IMG/VR virus record: IMGVR_UViG_3300006868_000134
Coordinates: 1 to 21,883 of that record
Length of the DNA: 21,883 nucleotides
Reading direction: 5' to 3' (one strand)
Source of the DNA: a virus
Notes under the pieces: generated by a model
Databases searched by the model: none
Told to the model about the DNA's origin: nothing
What the model saw: only the letters and a program-made list of their open reading frames with translations
Shown: positions 14,242 to 21,883 of the stretch, piece by piece
Position numbering within the stretch: the first letter of the stretch is position 1
Layout: every line of letters begins with the position of its first letter
Program-made: the position numbers and the translations under genes

Positions 14242-14844
14242 ATGAGCGAAATTATGCATGATAAAAACGGAGTAGTAGTTCAAGGACACATAAAAATAAG
14301 TGACCCTGAAACAAAAGAAATTTACGTAGATAAACGTAATGCTATTCATTATGAAAATATGAGTATAGCATTAGCTGAAAGCCTATCCAATGCAGGACAA
14401 GGATTTATCTATGAAATGAGTTTTGGTAACGGTGGCACAAGTGTTGATGATAGCGGTATTATTACATACTTAACACCAAATTCAACAGGCACTAATGCTA
14501 CTCTTTATAACCAAACATTTACAAAAGTAGTTGATGACAGAAGTGTAAACAATTTAGATTCTGCACGTAATTATACAGAAATTAGACATGTAAGCGGAAC
14601 AAACTATACAGATGTTATAGTTAGTTGTTTACTTGACTACGGAGAGCCAGAAGGTCAGCTTGCATTTGACACAGCAACAAATACAGAAGATGCATATGTA
14701 TTTGATGAGCTAGGGTTAAGAAGCTACAGTCCTTCCGGTGACGGCAGATTAATCACTCATGTTATTTTCCATCCTGTGCAGAAGAGTTTGAATAGACTTA
14801 TTCAAATAGACTACACAGTGCGTATTCAGAGTTTAGCAGGGTAA
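14242..14844 (+). CDS. Conserved marine T4-like phage structural protein, 200 residues
   Basis: I recognise this as a small conserved protein of marine T4-like phages, always close to tail-fibre genes; its exact role is not known to me. Characteristic segments are 'VVQGHIKISDPET' (about residues 12-24), 'KRNAIHYENMSIALAESL' (about 31-48), 'YEMSFGNGGTSVDDSGIITYL' in parts (about 57-77), and a strongly conserved end 'HVIFHPVQKSLNRLIQIDYT' (about 169-192). It looks beta-rich and globular, with no signal peptide or membrane helix. The start is supported by AGGA six bases upstream. It lies 19 bases after the giant gene and 12 before the first fibre gene, so a connector or baseplate-adaptor role between them is a reasonable inference, not a demonstrated one. 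Confidence 0.8.
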   Translation: MSEIMHDKNGVVVQGHIKISDPETKEIYVDKRNAIHYENMSIALAESLSNAGQGFIYEMSFGNGGTSVDDSGIITYLTPNSTGTNATLYNQTFTKVVDDRSVNNLDSARNYTEIRHVSGTNYTDVIVSCLLDYGEPEGQLAFDTATNTEDAYVFDELGLRSYSPSGDGRLITHVIFHPVQKSLNRLIQIDYTVRIQSLAG

Positions 14845-14856
14845 CGGGAGTAGACA

Positions 14857-16962
14857 ATGGCATATGAAGTTCGTTACACTGATACAGTAAACAAAGGCAC
14901 AATAATTGTTGAGGATTCTACACTTAATTCTGAAACTAGCTTAACACTTCCTGGTAGATCAAGTACAGGTTATGGACAAGCAGTAGCAGAAAACTTTCTA
15001 CACTTACTTGAAAATTTTGCAAACGCTACTGCGCCCGATCGCCCAGTTGAAGGACAACTTTGGTATGATAATACAGACGGTGTTGATCAGTTAAAAGTTT
15101 ATGATGGCACTACATGGAGTGCCGCAGGCGGCTTAAAAAAAGCAACTACTGAACCAGCAGTTGCTAATTCAGTAGCAGGAGACCTTTGGGTCAACACTGA
15201 TAGTCAACAACTTTACTTGTTTACGGGTAGTGCTTGGGTACTAGTAGGCCCGTCTTTTAGTGATGGATTATTAACTGGTATTCAGTCAGAAGCAATTGTA
15301 GGTTCCGACGATGTTACATATAATATTTTAACAATTAAAATTGAAGACAAACCAGCAGCAATTATTTCAAAACAAGCATTTGTTCCTAAAACAACAATTC
15401 CAGGTTTTACATCTGGAGTCAAAGCAGGATTCAATATATCAACAACACCATTATTTGGCTTAGAAGTTTTAAAATATTGGGGCACTGCTGAAAAAGCAGA
15501 ATCTTTAGTAATTGGCGGCGAGTCTATTGCTGCTACAAATTTCTTAAGAGGCGACGGCGAGTCTACTACAAATTATCAATTAAAAATAAAATCAGATGAC
15601 GGTATTGAAATTGGCACAGGAGGCCAGTTTAGATCTTATATTGAAGGAACAGCCGGAGTAATTGAAAATAGAACTAGCGGATCAAACATTGATTTTAAAT
15701 TAAAAGATGGTTCTACAAAATATACAGTAATGCGTGTTGACAGTACACGAAAAGTAGGTATTAATAATATTGCCCCAGATGAAGAACTTGATGTTATAGG
15801 TAATGTACAAATTTCGCCTAAATCAGTAGATGACACATCTGGTAGACTTTTCGTAGAAAGTACAATTAATGCAACCGACACGGGAGAAGGTTCTGTTGTT
15901 ATTAAAGGCGGCGCAAGTATTGCACAAAATTTATATGTAAGCGGCGACCTTGTTATGAAGCAAGGTGAAGGCAGTGCAGGAACAATAACATCGGGTAATA
16001 TTGCTCCTGATAATGCAGGCATTCGCAATATTGGAACAGTAAACAACAAATATGATCAAGTTTATGCTAACACTTTTTATGGAAATATACAAGGTAACGT
16101 AAACGGAACTGTTTCTGGTAGATCAGGGTCTGCTGATAGATTATCAAGTGCAACTACATTTGCAGTGTCAGGTGATGTAACGCCAAACAGTTTTGCTTTT
16201 GATGGACAAACAGGCGGAAGTACTAAAACTTTCGATGTTAGAATTGCTAATAGTTTTATTTCAAATAAGACTCTAACATATGATGTTGAAAATGCAGATG
16301 AAATATTAATTAATAAAACTGTAGGTACTACAGGTCTATATAGAGTTTCAAAACGTAATTTCTTAAAAACTATTCCAGTAACTCCGCCAGGTGTCATTGT
16401 GCCTTACGGAGGACAAACTGCTCCAGAAGGATGGTTACTATGTGATGGCAGAGAAGTTCAAAAGTCAGATTATAACGAATTATGGAATGCAATAGGACAT
16501 AATTTTAAAGATCCTTCTCAAGTTTCAGACAATGGAGTAAGTTTGTTTACATTACCTGATTTAAGAGGTAGATTTACCCTTGGTGCAGATAATATGGGAG
16601 GACCAAGTGCAAATAGAGTTACTGCATTAGGTGCTACAGCGGTAGGCAACAGTGGTGGTAGCGAAGACATAACTATTGCATTAGAAAATTTACCAGAACA
16701 CGAACATGATTTAAGAGGTCCTAGCGGAACACAGTACTATAATATCCGTGTAGCATCGGGAGCAAAGTTAGATACTGGTGTTGTTGATCTTCCATTAGAG
16801 CCAGCAGCAGCAGGAACACAAGGATATATTAGTAGTGGCGGAATAAACCAACCAAACAAATATACTGACTCAAACGGAACACTTGTTCCTCGGTTAGGAG
16901 AAGAGCTTGATGTTATGAATCCGTACTTAACAATAAATTATATCATATATACTGGACAATAA
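14857..16962 (+). CDS. Tail fibre protein with phage tail-collar tip domain (fibre paralogue 1)
   Basis: 701 residues. The N-terminal ~300 residues match the next two genes: 'GYGQAVAENFLHLLENFAN' (about 38-56), two beta-hairpins of the type G-x-L-W-x-D/N ... Y-D-G-x-x-W (65-91 and 107-131), and 'YWGTAEKAESLV' (about 207-219). A shaft motif 'KVGINNIAPDEELDVIGN' sits at about 299-316. 'IGTVNNKYDQVYANTFYGN' (about 392-410) is a typical trimeric-fibre segment. The C-terminal part is a phage tail-collar domain beginning 'GVIVPYGGQTAPEGWLLCDG' at about 512, with 'LPDLRGRF' following, H615-E-H617 in 'LPEHEHDL', and the terminal 'PYLTINYIIYTG' usual for this family. It is probably a trimeric receptor-binding fibre related in its tip to T4 gp12-type short fibres. 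GGGAG lies six bases before the ATG. Confidence 0.88.
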   Translation: MAYEVRYTDTVNKGTIIVEDSTLNSETSLTLPGRSSTGYGQAVAENFLHLLENFANATAPDRPVEGQLWYDNTDGVDQLKVYDGTTWSAAGGLKKATTEPAVANSVAGDLWVNTDSQQLYLFTGSAWVLVGPSFSDGLLTGIQSEAIVGSDDVTYNILTIKIEDKPAAIISKQAFVPKTTIPGFTSGVKAGFNISTTPLFGLEVLKYWGTAEKAESLVIGGESIAATNFLRGDGESTTNYQLKIKSDDGIEIGTGGQFRSYIEGTAGVIENRTSGSNIDFKLKDGSTKYTVMRVDSTRKVGINNIAPDEELDVIGNVQISPKSVDDTSGRLFVESTINATDTGEGSVVIKGGASIAQNLYVSGDLVMKQGEGSAGTITSGNIAPDNAGIRNIGTVNNKYDQVYANTFYGNIQGNVNGTVSGRSGSADRLSSATTFAVSGDVTPNSFAFDGQTGGSTKTFDVRIANSFISNKTLTYDVENADEILINKTVGTTGLYRVSKRNFLKTIPVTPPGVIVPYGGQTAPEGWLLCDGREVQKSDYNELWNAIGHNFKDPSQVSDNGVSLFTLPDLRGRFTLGADNMGGPSANRVTALGATAVGNSGGSEDITIALENLPEHEHDLRGPSGTQYYNIRVASGAKLDTGVVDLPLEPAAAGTQGYISSGGINQPNKYTDSNGTLVPRLGEELDVMNPYLTINYIIYTGQ

Positions 16963-16963
16963 G

Positions 16964-18973
16964 ATGAGTTATCAATTAAACAGAACAGATGGAACACTAC
17001 TAACAAATTTAATAGATGGGCAAATTGATACTAATAGCACCAATTTAACTCTTGTAGGTAGAAATTATACTGGATACGGCGAAGCGTTTAATGAAAACTT
17101 TATTAGATTGTTAGAAAATTTTGCCAACACTGCTGCACCAAGTAATCCTTTAACAGGACAACTATGGTGGGATACTACAGAACAAAGGCTTAAAGTTTAT
17201 GACGGCACTACATGGAAAGCAAGTGGCGGCCCGTATGTACAAGACACTCAACCACAAATGGTTGCAGGCGATCTATGGATTAATAATTTAACAAATCAAG
17301 TGTATGCCTATGACGGTTCTAATACAATTTTAATAGGCCCTAGTTATACTGCTGCACAAGATACTAGTGGATTTGTAATTGAAACTATTTTAGATAGTAC
17401 TAGTAGATCAAGAACAATAGCAAAATTATACATTGGCGGAACACTATCTGCTGTTGTTAGTGATATTGAATTTACACCTATATATTCTGAAAGAATTTTA
17501 GGATTAGTTACAGATACTAATCCTGAAGGAACAATATCTCAAGGTTTTAATATTATTGATGCAGCTAATTTTAAATTTAGAGGAATTGCAAACTCTGCTA
17601 ATGCACTTGTAACAGCTAATGGTACTATTAGAACTGCTGACAGCTTTTTACCTTCGGACAATAACGGTACTACAATTGGTACACTAACCATCCAAAACCA
17701 AGGTGGCTTAACAATTGGTTTGTCACAAAATAATGTGCAAAAGGTTGTACAAGATCGATTCTATATCGAAAACCAATTAACAAACCATGACATGAGTTTA
17801 AGAGTTAGATCTAGTCAGTTTGAAAGTCTTATTGTTGATGCTGTTTACGTTGATGCCGGTACAGCAAGAGTTGGTATTTTTACAACTGATAGATTACCAG
17901 AATACACATTAGATGTTGAAGGTGATTTGCGTGTAACTGGTAATATGATCATTGAAGGCGACACGTCATTAATTGAAGTAGGAACATTAAGGGTAGAAGA
18001 TAAACACATTGAATTAGCTGCACTTGATGATAGTAGTATTGGTGATGATACTGTTGTAAATGGTGCTGGAATAATTGTAGTTTCAAGAACTGAACAAAAT
18101 GGTGTTTTTGTTAATACTGATAAAACGTTTACTTGGGACTTAACAACACAAGCATGGACGTCTAACCAAAATATTAACTTAGAAAATTTAGGCGATTCAT
18201 ATAAGATTAACGGTGTTGATAAACTAACAGATTCAAGTTTAACTAATATTTTATATGCAACTGATTTAGTCGAAATTGGTACGTTAAATTATTTAAATGT
18301 ACAAAATATGGGCTTTGGCGATGTAAACTCAGGACTTGGCAGTAATGAAATTAGAAATACAGGATCAAACTTAGTATTATCCTCTAACTATGGTTTAACA
18401 TTAACTACAGGAATAACAACACCTACAGTAGGTAGTGTTATTGTTGATGAAAATCAATTTATATCGGGCGTGTCTAAACCAGTTAGTGCAAGAGTAGCAG
18501 CAGCTAGTAGCGGAACATTAACAGAAAATACAGATGATTTTGTTGCTACTAAAGGCTATGTTGATGATGAAGTATTAAATTCTCCTATTACTTTTAGTAT
18601 GGATATTACTGGATTAGGTACAGGTGCTACTTTACAAAATAATATTGCAACATATTTAAATGATCTTTATCCTGCTATACCTGGTAATACTGGTAAAATA
18701 GCAAGAATACACTGTACATCTTATGCCGGAGCAACAGTTAGTGGTATTGTTGTTGATGTAAGAGATGACAATGAACCTAACAATGGAGAAGTATTAACAT
18801 TGTCAAAGAGGTTATTTGATGCAGGAAATACACTTAATGAATCAGCTGTACAAGACGTACAAGCAACTAATACTGCTTCTGGAACTGTTAGCTTAACACC
18901 AGCTAGAACAATGATGGTATTCGAAAGTGATGGAACAATATGGGATTATGTGTCGACGACAACTTATCCGTAA
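16964..18973 (+). CDS. Tail fibre protein (fibre paralogue 2)
   Basis: 669 residues. It starts one base after the preceding stop (TAA-G-ATG) with only a weak GGAC upstream, so translation is probably coupled to the gene before. The N-terminus repeats the shared module: 'GYGEAFNENFIRLLENFAN' (37-55) and two G-x-L-W/Y-D-G hairpins (65-89 and 102-126). 'RVGIFTTDRLPEYTLDVEGD' near residue 302 corresponds to the 'VGI..P..LDV.G' shaft motif. It leads into 'LRVTGNMIIEGD' and 'LRVEDKHIELAALDD' (about 325-360), a segment I recall from marine phage fibres. The C-terminal domain opens with 'ATKGYVDDEV' (528-537) and ends 'FESDGTIWDYVSTTTYP'. There is no collar domain. A receptor-binding fibre on the same attachment module is inferred. 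The receptor is unknown. Confidence 0.83.
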   Translation: MSYQLNRTDGTLLTNLIDGQIDTNSTNLTLVGRNYTGYGEAFNENFIRLLENFANTAAPSNPLTGQLWWDTTEQRLKVYDGTTWKASGGPYVQDTQPQMVAGDLWINNLTNQVYAYDGSNTILIGPSYTAAQDTSGFVIETILDSTSRSRTIAKLYIGGTLSAVVSDIEFTPIYSERILGLVTDTNPEGTISQGFNIIDAANFKFRGIANSANALVTANGTIRTADSFLPSDNNGTTIGTLTIQNQGGLTIGLSQNNVQKVVQDRFYIENQLTNHDMSLRVRSSQFESLIVDAVYVDAGTARVGIFTTDRLPEYTLDVEGDLRVTGNMIIEGDTSLIEVGTLRVEDKHIELAALDDSSIGDDTVVNGAGIIVVSRTEQNGVFVNTDKTFTWDLTTQAWTSNQNINLENLGDSYKINGVDKLTDSSLTNILYATDLVEIGTLNYLNVQNMGFGDVNSGLGSNEIRNTGSNLVLSSNYGLTLTTGITTPTVGSVIVDENQFISGVSKPVSARVAAASSGTLTENTDDFVATKGYVDDEVLNSPITFSMDITGLGTGATLQNNIATYLNDLYPAIPGNTGKIARIHCTSYAGATVSGIVVDVRDDNEPNNGEVLTLSKRLFDAGNTLNESAVQDVQATNTASGTVSLTPARTMMVFESDGTIWDYVSTTTYP

Positions 18974-18978
18974 AATAC

Positions 18979-18986
18979 GATAAATA
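18979..18986 (+). promoter_or_regulatory. Candidate T4-type late promoter before fibre paralogue 3
   Basis: GATAAATA matches TATAAATA at seven of eight positions and lies in the 46-base gap between stop (18971-18973) and start (19020), the widest gap in the window. Initiation about six bases downstream gives a start near 18992 and a leader of about 28 bases carrying AGGGG at 19005-19009, a normal T4 late-gene layout. This suggests the third fibre gene can be transcribed independently of the first two. Confidence 0.6.
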
Positions 18987-19019
18987 ACTTAAAGCACTAT
19001 TATTAGGGGTTTAACGAAG

Positions 19020-20519
19020 ATGGCTTATCAAATTGACAGATACAATAATACAGTTTTAACAATAGTTGAGGACGGTACAGTTGACCAAACTACTGATCTT
19101 AAATTTATTGGTAAAAACTACGCCGGATATGGCGAAATACAAAACGAAAATTTCTTATACTTATTAGAAAACTTTGCAGGTGCAAACCAACCACCACGTG
19201 CAATTAGCGGACAGCTTTGGTTTGATACTGCAAATAGTAAGTTAAAATTCTATGATGGATCTCAGTGGAGGTCAACAGGCGGATCAGCTGTTGGAACAGC
19301 AGCTCCAACAGGTCTTACATCAGGTGATTTTTGGTGGGATAGTGCAAACGATCAGTTGTATGTATATAATGGTAGTGACTTTATATTAATTGGACCTCAA
19401 AACGCCGGCGCAGGCGTAACACAAATGGTAAGCCGAGAAGTTTTAGACATTTTAGGCAACACAAGATCAATTATTGCAGCAACGTTAGAAGATACAGTTG
19501 TTGCTACAGTTAGTAGTGTTGAATTTACGTTAAATGAAGCAACCCCTATTACAGGATTCGATACTATTAAAGCAGGATTTACTTTAGTTAATACAACATC
19601 TGGCACTGGTACATTTGGTTTAGCTAACACTAACGGAAGAACTACTGGAGCCCATAGATATTGGGGTACTTCATCGGCTGCACTAAATCTTGTAAAATCA
19701 GATGGTACACTTTTTTCAGCTGATTCTGTTCTTACTGCAACAGCAGGAGAAACAACAAGATTTGATGACTTAGTTGAGTTTTCAAGTGACGGTATATTAA
19801 TTGGCGATTTCAAAATATACATGGATGGTACTTCTGCGGTATTAGAAAATCAAGCTAGTGTTAACAATGAAATTAGATTTAGAGTTACTAACAACTTAGG
19901 TACTCCTACTACAGTAAGTAAAATGAACATTACAGGACTAATTCCAGGTCTTGACAACACTTATGATATCGGTACTGCTGCACTACGCTGGCAAGATGTG
20001 TATGCTGTTAACTTTGTAGGTGAAGCAACTAAAGCAACAAGTTTGCGTGTAGGAAGTGATTTTAGAACAGCAGCAGTTAGTGCAACAAACAATACAGTAG
20101 CAGTAAGAGATGCTACCGGTAATATTGCCGCAAATTTATTCCAAGGTACTGCAACCGCTGCACGTTATGCTGACTTAGCAGAAAAATACACAACAGATCA
20201 AGAGTATCCAGTAGGAACAGTAATGGCTGTTGGCGGCGAAGTAGAAACTAGAGCAAGTAAAATAGGCGATATAGCAATAGGTGTTATTTCAGATGCTCCT
20301 GCATACTTAATGAATAGCGATGCAGAAGGACAGGCAATTGGTCTTAAAGGCCGCGTTCCGGTTAGAGTTACAGGACCAGTAAGTAAAGGACAGTCTGTAT
20401 ATGTTGCTTCTGAAGAAGGTACTGCATCAACAATAGCATCAAATAGTATGGTAGGAATTGCACTTGAAACTAATAATGATGAAGGTGAAAAACTAGTAGA
20501 ATGTGTGCTAAAAGTTTAA
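19020..20519 (+). CDS. Tail fibre protein with 'YADLAEKY' C-terminal domain (fibre paralogue 3)
   Basis: 499 residues, the shortest of the three fibres. It shares the N-terminal module: 'GYGEIQNENFLYLLENFAG' (36-54), hairpins at 64-88 and 102-126, then 'HRYWGTSSAALNLVKSDGT' (about 212-231). 'YDIGTAALRWQDVYAVNFVG' (about 315-334) resembles the segment that precedes tip or chaperone domains in other fibres. The C-terminal domain, about 381-499, starts with Y383-A-D385-L-A-E388 and contains 'YPVGTVMAVGGEVETRA', 'PAYLMN' and 'GLKGRVPVRVTGPVSKGQ'. I recall this from fibre proteins of many marine phages. The YAD/E-start followed by 'GTV...GG..E' loosely resembles the autoproteolytic chaperone (Peptidase_G2) of phi29 gp12, but I cannot confirm catalytic residues. 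AGGGG lies ten bases before the ATG. Confidence 0.83.
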   Translation: MAYQIDRYNNTVLTIVEDGTVDQTTDLKFIGKNYAGYGEIQNENFLYLLENFAGANQPPRAISGQLWFDTANSKLKFYDGSQWRSTGGSAVGTAAPTGLTSGDFWWDSANDQLYVYNGSDFILIGPQNAGAGVTQMVSREVLDILGNTRSIIAATLEDTVVATVSSVEFTLNEATPITGFDTIKAGFTLVNTTSGTGTFGLANTNGRTTGAHRYWGTSSAALNLVKSDGTLFSADSVLTATAGETTRFDDLVEFSSDGILIGDFKIYMDGTSAVLENQASVNNEIRFRVTNNLGTPTTVSKMNITGLIPGLDNTYDIGTAALRWQDVYAVNFVGEATKATSLRVGSDFRTAAVSATNNTVAVRDATGNIAANLFQGTATAARYADLAEKYTTDQEYPVGTVMAVGGEVETRASKIGDIAIGVISDAPAYLMNSDAEGQAIGLKGRVPVRVTGPVSKGQSVYVASEEGTASTIASNSMVGIALETNNDEGEKLVECVLKV

Positions 20520-20528
20520 GGAATCATC

Positions 20529-21883
20529 ATGGCAGATATAAGTGCAGCAAGACTTAATAACTTACAAGCAAGAATTGAAGCAATTATGGGAAATGGCGCC
20601 GGCCAAAATGGTTACGGTGAAACTATTTCAAGTTACCAAGTTTCTTCAGGAACTGTAATACAAGCTAATGATATTAACTCTATATATGCTGACATAGTTA
20701 GAGCAAGAGTACACCAAGTAGGTGTTTCTCCGCCAGAAATCCAACAACTTATTAGTAATTTAAACGTCATTGCAGATGAAACAAGTTTTTATATTAACGA
20801 TTCGGGTATAACAACTAATGACCCCGGCGGCGCCGAAAAAGGTATTGCTGATTTTGAAAACTTAATGAACTCAGTTGAAGCTGACAAATTTTTAATAGAT
20901 ATTGGCCAAGCAACTTTAGAGTCAGGTACTAGTAGTTCTAGAACTACAGGATGGAATGGAATAATACACCATACATTTAATGTAGTATTTGCAGATGCAG
21001 ATCATCGTAGACATTTTTTTAATAGTGGCGGCGAAATTAGAATAGAAGTTGCAAATGCTAGTGCATCTAGTGCAAAAGGACGTGATTGGGAAGATTTATG
21101 TAGATTAGTTGGTACAGTTAAGTTTAATTATAATAGCACTACTACAACTAGTTCAGGAAGCGGTACAAATACAGGAAACTATGATCTTACTACTTCTTAT
21201 CAAACAATATATACTAAAACAGGTACAGGAACATACAGTGGTGTTTATGCAGGTAATGTATTTAAAATACAAGCTAAAGAACTAACTGCTGATACTATAG
21301 AATTCCGGTTAGAATTTAACGATGCAGTTACATTTAATGTTCCAAGTTCATACATTGATAATAATGTTGACGGGAATTTATCAACTACTGTAAAAAATTA
21401 TAGAGCAGATACATCAAATGTTACAGTAGCAGCACCAACATACACAACAGTCACATCGTTGTCATCATTTGCTACACCAACTCCGCCAGCAGCACCACCG
21501 CCACCGCCACCGCCGCCACCCCCGGCTTGTGTAGATCCTGCTCCTTTCTCAGATTCATTGGCTACATATCAGCCAGGTCAGGTTATAATATACAATGACG
21601 GTAGCATATTTACAAACAGATCATTTGTTATTTCAACTAAAACACCTGAAGCTGCAACAATTGCTGGCTGGTATCTAAGCGATTTGGGTAGACCTGCAGA
21701 GTTAGAAGGATTACAGTATTGGTGGAACTTATGGCAAAGTGCAGGCGAAAGTGCTACTAAAGCCCAATTTGATGTTTCAAAACTGCCCGAAGTTAACAGA
21801 GGCGGCGTTACAGCCGTTTATACATATTGTCAATATTATGGACCGTCAGCGCCACCACCGCCACCACCTGCACCAACTGTTTT
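20529..21883 (+). CDS. Virion structural protein with polyproline linkers and DUF4214-like segment, 3'-partial
   Basis: The frame stays open to the window edge (451 codons visible), and the stop is beyond it. The start at 20529 is set by AAGGAA at 20518-20523, overlapping the previous stop. The N-terminus 'LNNLQARIEAIMGNGAG' followed by 'NGYGETISSYQV' and 'IQANDINSIYADIVRAR' matches a family I recall next to tail fibres in marine T4-like phages. The segment 'ADADHRRHFFNSGGEIRIEV' (about 155-174) is a conserved virion motif in that family. Ten consecutive prolines at 323-332 and six at 442-447 flank a Cys-starting unit of about 108 residues containing 'GWYLSDLGRPAELEGLQYWW' (380-399), the Y..LGR....GL.YW pattern of DUF4214. 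An appendage or fibre-associated role is inferred. Further linker-domain repeats may follow outside the window. Confidence 0.82.
   Translation, partial: MADISAARLNNLQARIEAIMGNGAGQNGYGETISSYQVSSGTVIQANDINSIYADIVRARVHQVGVSPPEIQQLISNLNVIADETSFYINDSGITTNDPGGAEKGIADFENLMNSVEADKFLIDIGQATLESGTSSSRTTGWNGIIHHTFNVVFADADHRRHFFNSGGEIRIEVANASASSAKGRDWEDLCRLVGTVKFNYNSTTTTSSGSGTNTGNYDLTTSYQTIYTKTGTGTYSGVYAGNVFKIQAKELTADTIEFRLEFNDAVTFNVPSSYIDNNVDGNLSTTVKNYRADTSNVTVAAPTYTTVTSLSSFATPTPPAAPPPPPPPPPPACVDPAPFSDSLATYQPGQVIIYNDGSIFTNRSFVISTKTPEAATIAGWYLSDLGRPAELEGLQYWWNLWQSAGESATKAQFDVSKLPEVNRGGVTAVYTYCQYYGPSAPPPPPPAPTV
21495..21524 (+). repeat. Polyproline tract 1 (ten Pro codons, CCN repeat)
   Basis: Ten consecutive proline codons (mostly CCA and CCG) make a GC-rich island in AT-rich DNA and encode a stiff linker before the DUF4214-like unit. 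A shorter run of six Pro codons follows at 21852-21869. Confidence 0.95.
21852..21869 (+). repeat. Polyproline tract 2 (six Pro codons)
   Basis: Six consecutive proline codons near the window edge follow 'YYGPSA'. With the tract at 21495-21524 they bracket the DUF4214-like unit, so linker and domain probably alternate. Confidence 0.9.

Follow-up and report, generated by a model that had tools for sequence, protein, structure and literature searches.

The window, a stretch of 21,883 bases from a virus record, carries its main genes on the plus strand: a giant ORF open at its 5' end, a 200-aa ORF, three fibre genes (P1, P2 and P3) and an ORF open at its 3' end (Table 1). Among named phages the closest are two jumbo myophages, Sinorhizobium phage Phosso and Agrobacterium phage Atu_ph07, followed by PA5oct-like, 121Q/PBECO4-like and RaK2-like phages. 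Related metagenome contigs as long as 357 kb and 335 kb make it most likely that the window comes from a jumbo genome, that of a myophage with Atu_ph07, Phosso, PA5oct and RaK2 among its relatives. The aquatic lineage of PMC12619734 is described there with no mention of RaK2 or Atu_ph07.

Table 1. Features of the window, with positions, strand and supporting matches.
Feature	Position	Strand	Remarks
Giant baseplate-associated virion protein, 5'-open, 4739 aa	3..14222	+	phrog_10938 (virion structural), E 5e-259
Conserved 200-aa protein, directly upstream of the fibre array	14242..14844	+	phrog_11259, E 2e-70
Fibre gene P1 (701 aa): N-module, shared middle, gp12-like collar tip	14857..16962	+	
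P1 N-module, residues 1-135	14857..15261	+	
P1 tail-collar domain PF07484, residues 512-573	16390..16575	+	E 8.5e-16
P1 His615-x-His617, at the place of T4 gp12 His-x-His	16699..16707	+	invariant in 133/133 relatives
Fibre gene P2 (669 aa): N-module, shared middle, class-specific tip	16964..18973	+	
P2 N-module, residues 1-130	16964..17353	+	
P2 class-specific part, residues 326-669	17939..18970	+	only in class 2, 83/83
P2 ATKGYVD linker, phage-type	18545..18565	+	globular domain of ~140 aa after linker
Fibre gene P3 (499 aa): N-module, shared middle, IMC-like tip	19020..20519	+	
P3 N-module, residues 1-130	19020..19409	+	
P3 tip, residues 345-499: Peptidase_G2 / phi29 gp12 D4-like domain	20052..20516	+	Foldseek
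P3 YADLAEKY, residues 383-390	20166..20189	+	predicted self-cleavage Ala384/Asp385, after base 20171

In Atu_ph07, Phosso and PA5oct a baseplate wedge or structural gene is followed by the giant structural protein gene, which adjoins it, then by a gene for a protein of about 200 aa and at least one gene carrying the N-terminal module (N-module) described below. The 200-aa protein, 44-55% identical to its counterparts in Rak2-like jumbo phages, is a candidate docking partner of the fibre array. In Pfam the giant ORF also matches FG-GAP_2 and, below threshold, CBM_5_12. Downstream of the array, the 3'-open ORF (20529-21881, plus strand, at least 451 aa) contains poly-proline stretches and a GWYLSDLGRPAELEGLQYWW segment that by eye resembles DUF4214; a Pfam scan of this ORF gave no match above the cut-off. 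Between 14100 and 20700 there are 12 terminator-like sites, compared to 3.0 expected from shuffles, and the pair whose stems are longest is on the minus strand inside P1, near 15141-15176.

The three fibre proteins are similar over their first 240-320 residues, far above chance. By BLASTP, P1 1-320 and P2 1-325 are 34.9% identical (E 5e-43), P1 1-284 and P3 1-291 36.1% (E 8e-43), and P2 1-237 and P3 1-246 35.7% (E 4e-42). Past these stretches the three diverge completely, and BLASTP found no significant match among them. Their alignment contains a GYG(Q/E)..ENF..LLENFA motif and two LW/YDG.W hairpins, then a segment that reads KYWGTAEKA, KFRGIANSA or RYWGTSSAA and a DGIEIG, GGLTIG or DGILIG motif. 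Thus the earlier note was right that these are paralogues with a common N-terminal module and three different C-terminal ends. AlphaFold monomer models are weak over the first 45 residues. The genes are separated by only 1 nt and 46 nt, and in most loci the P1-P2 junction is a gap of 1 nt or an overlap of 1-4 nt.

The tail-collar tip that had been read into P1 was confirmed: PF07484 matches at 58 bits against a cut-off of 24, and was matched in 42/42 relatives scanned. The P1 end also aligns to T4 gp12 (1pdi, E 1.5e-6) across the His-x-His, which by analogy may bind metal. A gp12-type N-terminal part, the part that binds gp10, was not found in P1, whose N-module matches no T4 protein.

The end of P3 looks like a self-cleaving chaperone domain of the phi29 gp12 type. 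Its best Foldseek matches were premature phi29 gp12 (3suc, E 8.5e-5) and the C-terminal fragment of that protein (3gqh, E 2.2e-4), with prob 1.00, although the fold is also that of phage head-fibre and decoration proteins, which match nearly as well. PF11962 falls just below its cut-off in the window's P3 (E 3.4e-5, 23.8 bits against 25) and was found at E<0.01 in 34/47 relatives (best 4e-7). In an alignment that is itself weak, YADLAEKY pairs with residues 690-697 of phi29 gp12, placing Asp385 on Asp692 and Glu388 on Glu695, and both P3 residues are invariant in 133/133. The protein phi29 gp12 cleaves itself at the Asp692 site; the 3gqh chain comprises 163 of 854 residues and, if it reaches the C-terminus, starts at about 692, at that Asp. 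P3 has Ala, and phi29 Ser, immediately before the predicted cut. Because P3 appears to end in such a domain, its end is probably not a receptor tip, though it could still bind something if it stays attached. Very long ORFs (2882 and 2663 aa) elsewhere in L252 and L253, the contigs behind L018 and L059, carry the P3-type YADLAEKY domain as well. Intragenomic gene conversion is an unlikely source of P3 tips: in two other giant genes with a P3-like end, that end has only about 34% in common with the end of P3 in the window.

The C-terminal domain of P2 (residues 541-669) is modelled with confidence by AlphaFold, with pLDDT mostly 73-94. The protein matched no named family, and its model retrieved nothing from the PDB at E<=0.001 by Foldseek. 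Against viral structure models it matched mostly uncharacterised proteins of uncultured phages, and the P2 end has almost no relatives among sequenced phages.

Three scans of viral contigs yielded more than 200 loci, a sample that favours close relatives. The order P1-P2-P3 was found in the 159 loci with three complete genes (some contigs counted twice), and three further loci, from two contigs, keep it but have a fourth gene inserted between P2 and P3. After dereplication 83 loci remained, identical in order and tips. In these, N-module profiles matched all three genes, and N and middle profiles cross-matched the classes, whereas the tip profiles of P1 and P2 each matched their own class only; the P3 tip profile matched class 3 and 44 class-1 proteins and no class-2 protein. 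Tips are conserved about as well as the shaft, and the P3 end better. In the N-module tree, a branch with support 99 sets class 1 apart, while classes 2 and 3 need two and three changes, respectively, due to long-branch outsiders and to fourth copies, which fall inside class 3. The three N-modules are, on this sequence evidence, three ancient orthologue classes. Homogenisation of N-modules within a genome was considered and rejected, since the classes stay separate in the tree.

In this clade's long records, which reach 357 kb, full-length N-modules occur nowhere but in this array. Other relatives carry from one to six N-module genes. Atu_ph07 and Phosso have just one, whose end is P3-type; more distant contigs, taken from bacterial or archaeal bins, have either one gene, with a P3-type end in two and an unassigned end in one, or two genes, P2-like and P3-type. 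These relatives, most of them with a P3-type end, suggest a P3-type gene as the probable starting point from which the array grew stepwise. At the upper end are XacN1 (ORF232-ORF237, L006:13176-22232) and RAS14 (L007:10883-19560), each with six tandem N-module genes; the XacN1 paper reported no tail fibre homologues in that phage (PMC5852040).

Trees of the N-terminal and middle parts of the three genes conflict in only 0-3 of 37-40 strong splits. The P1 tip conflicts in 2-3 of 39 strong splits, the P2 tip in 6-8 of 39 and the P3 tip in 7-8 of 20. The earlier note had counted matching N- and C-terminal trees as evidence against its proposal of duplication followed by tip exchange; the trees match for P1 and mostly for P2, and conflict only for P3. 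For the P3 tip, congruence survived AU tests on three clades (p 0.10-0.38), so that the case for P3 tip exchange rests more on mosaic pairs than on tree tests. In one such pair (L223/L076) identity is 74% in the N part, 35% in the middle and 96% at the end, and similar pairs exist; the break lies near residue 365-372 and the similar stretch continues past the stop codon. As far as sequences tell, P3 tips recombine with the same tip of relatives and are not swapped for another kind. Exchange to a new tip was seen only in the extra fourth gene (L163:6589-8484; L165:14564-16615), which joins a class-3 N-module to a long-fibre type shaft of repeated LDGLDS-type with an ATKGYVD/ATKRYVE linker, and to another end. 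The N-module can clearly take new ends elsewhere.

Virion evidence comes from homologues rather than from the window's own proteins. In the PA5oct record gp357, gp358, gp359 and gp360 are marked as seen by ESI-MS/MS; gp358 is an N-module with a Gp10_C end (E 1e-23), and gp359 an N-module with a P3-type end. In phAPEC6, gp250c and gp251c appear in the virion proteome table (PMC7247149), the former being an N-module protein and the latter the orthologue of the 200-aa protein. RaK2 gp098 was rejected as a counterpart; the N-module gene of RaK2 is ORF065. Docking on the baseplate, suggested by synteny and annotation, agrees with the common baseplate socket proposed earlier, and the virion proteomics of homologues adds support.

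Our preferred explanation, which we consider probable, is that the trio forms a fixed set of fibres for the baseplate of a jumbo myophage, conserved and inherited together, whose members share a dock but divide the roles. The paralogy, the three old classes, the fixed order, the congruence and the domain identities were all drawn from sequence comparison. Each protein would probably form its own homotrimer and dock on the baseplate through the same N-module (a beta-strand, an amphipathic helix and two LW hairpins, ~130 aa), which would be followed by the shared middle part to about residue 300. P1, with its collar and His-x-His end, would be the receptor-binding member, resembling a short tail fibre. 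The intramolecular chaperone (IMC) of P3, like that of phi29 gp12, would probably cleave itself off after trimerisation and leave a short blunt fibre or spacer, and P2 would supply a separate fibre end. The set would have arisen through ancient duplications, the probable starting point being one N-module gene whose end was P3-type, and the three genes would since have been inherited together, with clear recombination at the P3 end only. A set fixed long ago and inherited as a unit looks like standing baseplate hardware and not like recently shuffled host-range tips.

The main rival, which we consider unlikely, is that the trio corresponds to T4 gp10-gp11-gp12, in which case the paralogues would bind one another as one baseplate-rim unit, only P1 would touch the cell, and P2 and P3 would be structural or trigger parts. 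The T4 genes are consecutive and co-transcribed, and their products descend from one ancestral fold and contact each other at the rim (PMC3004832). The window's trio is likewise consecutive and tightly spaced, in relatives the place of the array is downstream of the wedge and giant protein genes, the P1 end is gp12-like and PA5oct gp358 has a Gp10_C end. However, Pfam, PDB sequence search and Foldseek detected no similarity of the shared part to T4 gp10, gp11 or gp12 (weak monomer models leave room for a distant fold match), and single-gene relatives manage without a trio.

That duplication and tip exchange gave several alternative receptor specificities on one socket, as the earlier note supposed, is improbable. 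The different ends on a common N-module, the fourth genes of L163 and L165, the exchange of P3 ends between lineages and the six-gene arrays of XacN1 and RAS14 would all fit it, but the tips are class-fixed in 83/83 loci and conserved about like the shaft, with the P3 end ahead of it; for P1 the trees of N and C parts agree, and the P3 end looks like a chaperone. Of that proposal the paralogy stands; recent exchange as a source of alternative specificities does not, given three old classes with order and tips identical in every complete trio relative. The earlier suggestion of a heteromeric fibre, taken here as one chain each of P1, P2 and P3, is very improbable. Three chains with a common N-terminal and middle part, a fixed gene order and tight spacing would suit a heterotrimer, yet relatives with one or two genes exist. 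In addition, the collar end of T4 gp12 and the IMC end of phi29 gp12 are homotrimeric.

More tentatively, the N-module might be a baseplate-docking domain not described before and shared by Rak2-like and related jumbo phages, on which fibre arrays possibly expanded step by step from one gene to six, in most cases retaining one self-cleaving blunt fibre. If so, it would also mark overlooked fibre genes in XacN1. With a recognisable N-terminal docking domain, profile searches could pick out the genes for the fibre-like parts of these phages, most of which are unassigned. Divided roles within a fixed set would account for a phage having many fibre genes without necessarily having many hosts.

Atu_ph07, Phosso and PA5oct share with the window the order of wedge, giant protein, ~200-aa protein and N-module genes. 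The N-modules of Rak2-like and PA5oct-like phages (Atu_ph07, Phosso, PA5oct gp358-gp359, phAPEC6 gp250c and RaK2 ORF065) are homologous to those of the window, but these phages have one or two such genes instead of three, no function has ever been assigned to them, and the C-terminal end of the coliphage member matches none of the window's three. The branched fibres formed by CBA120 TSP1-4 and RaK2 gp526-gp534 are also encoded by clustered genes with conserved N-terminal assembly domains (PMC8825819, PMC10253068), features they share with the trio. They use gp10-like XD domains, however, which were not found in the trio (7rej was reached only at E 0.4-0.5 by structure search), and in RaK2 ORF065 lies apart from the gp526-gp534 cluster. 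T4 gp10-gp11-gp12 and the trio are both sets of three consecutive paralogues, with diverged roles at the baseplate rim in T4 (PMC3004832) and probably in the trio, although no sequence or fold match was found in the common part. With the T4 short tail fibre gp12, P1 shares the collar domain and His-x-His, whereas its N-module and shared middle are unrelated to gp12 by every search made. The C-terminal chaperone of phi29 gp12 (Peptidase_G2) has its fold and Asp/Glu motif in common with the P3 end, but P3 lacks the tailspike body and carries the domain on a short fibre with a baseplate N-module.
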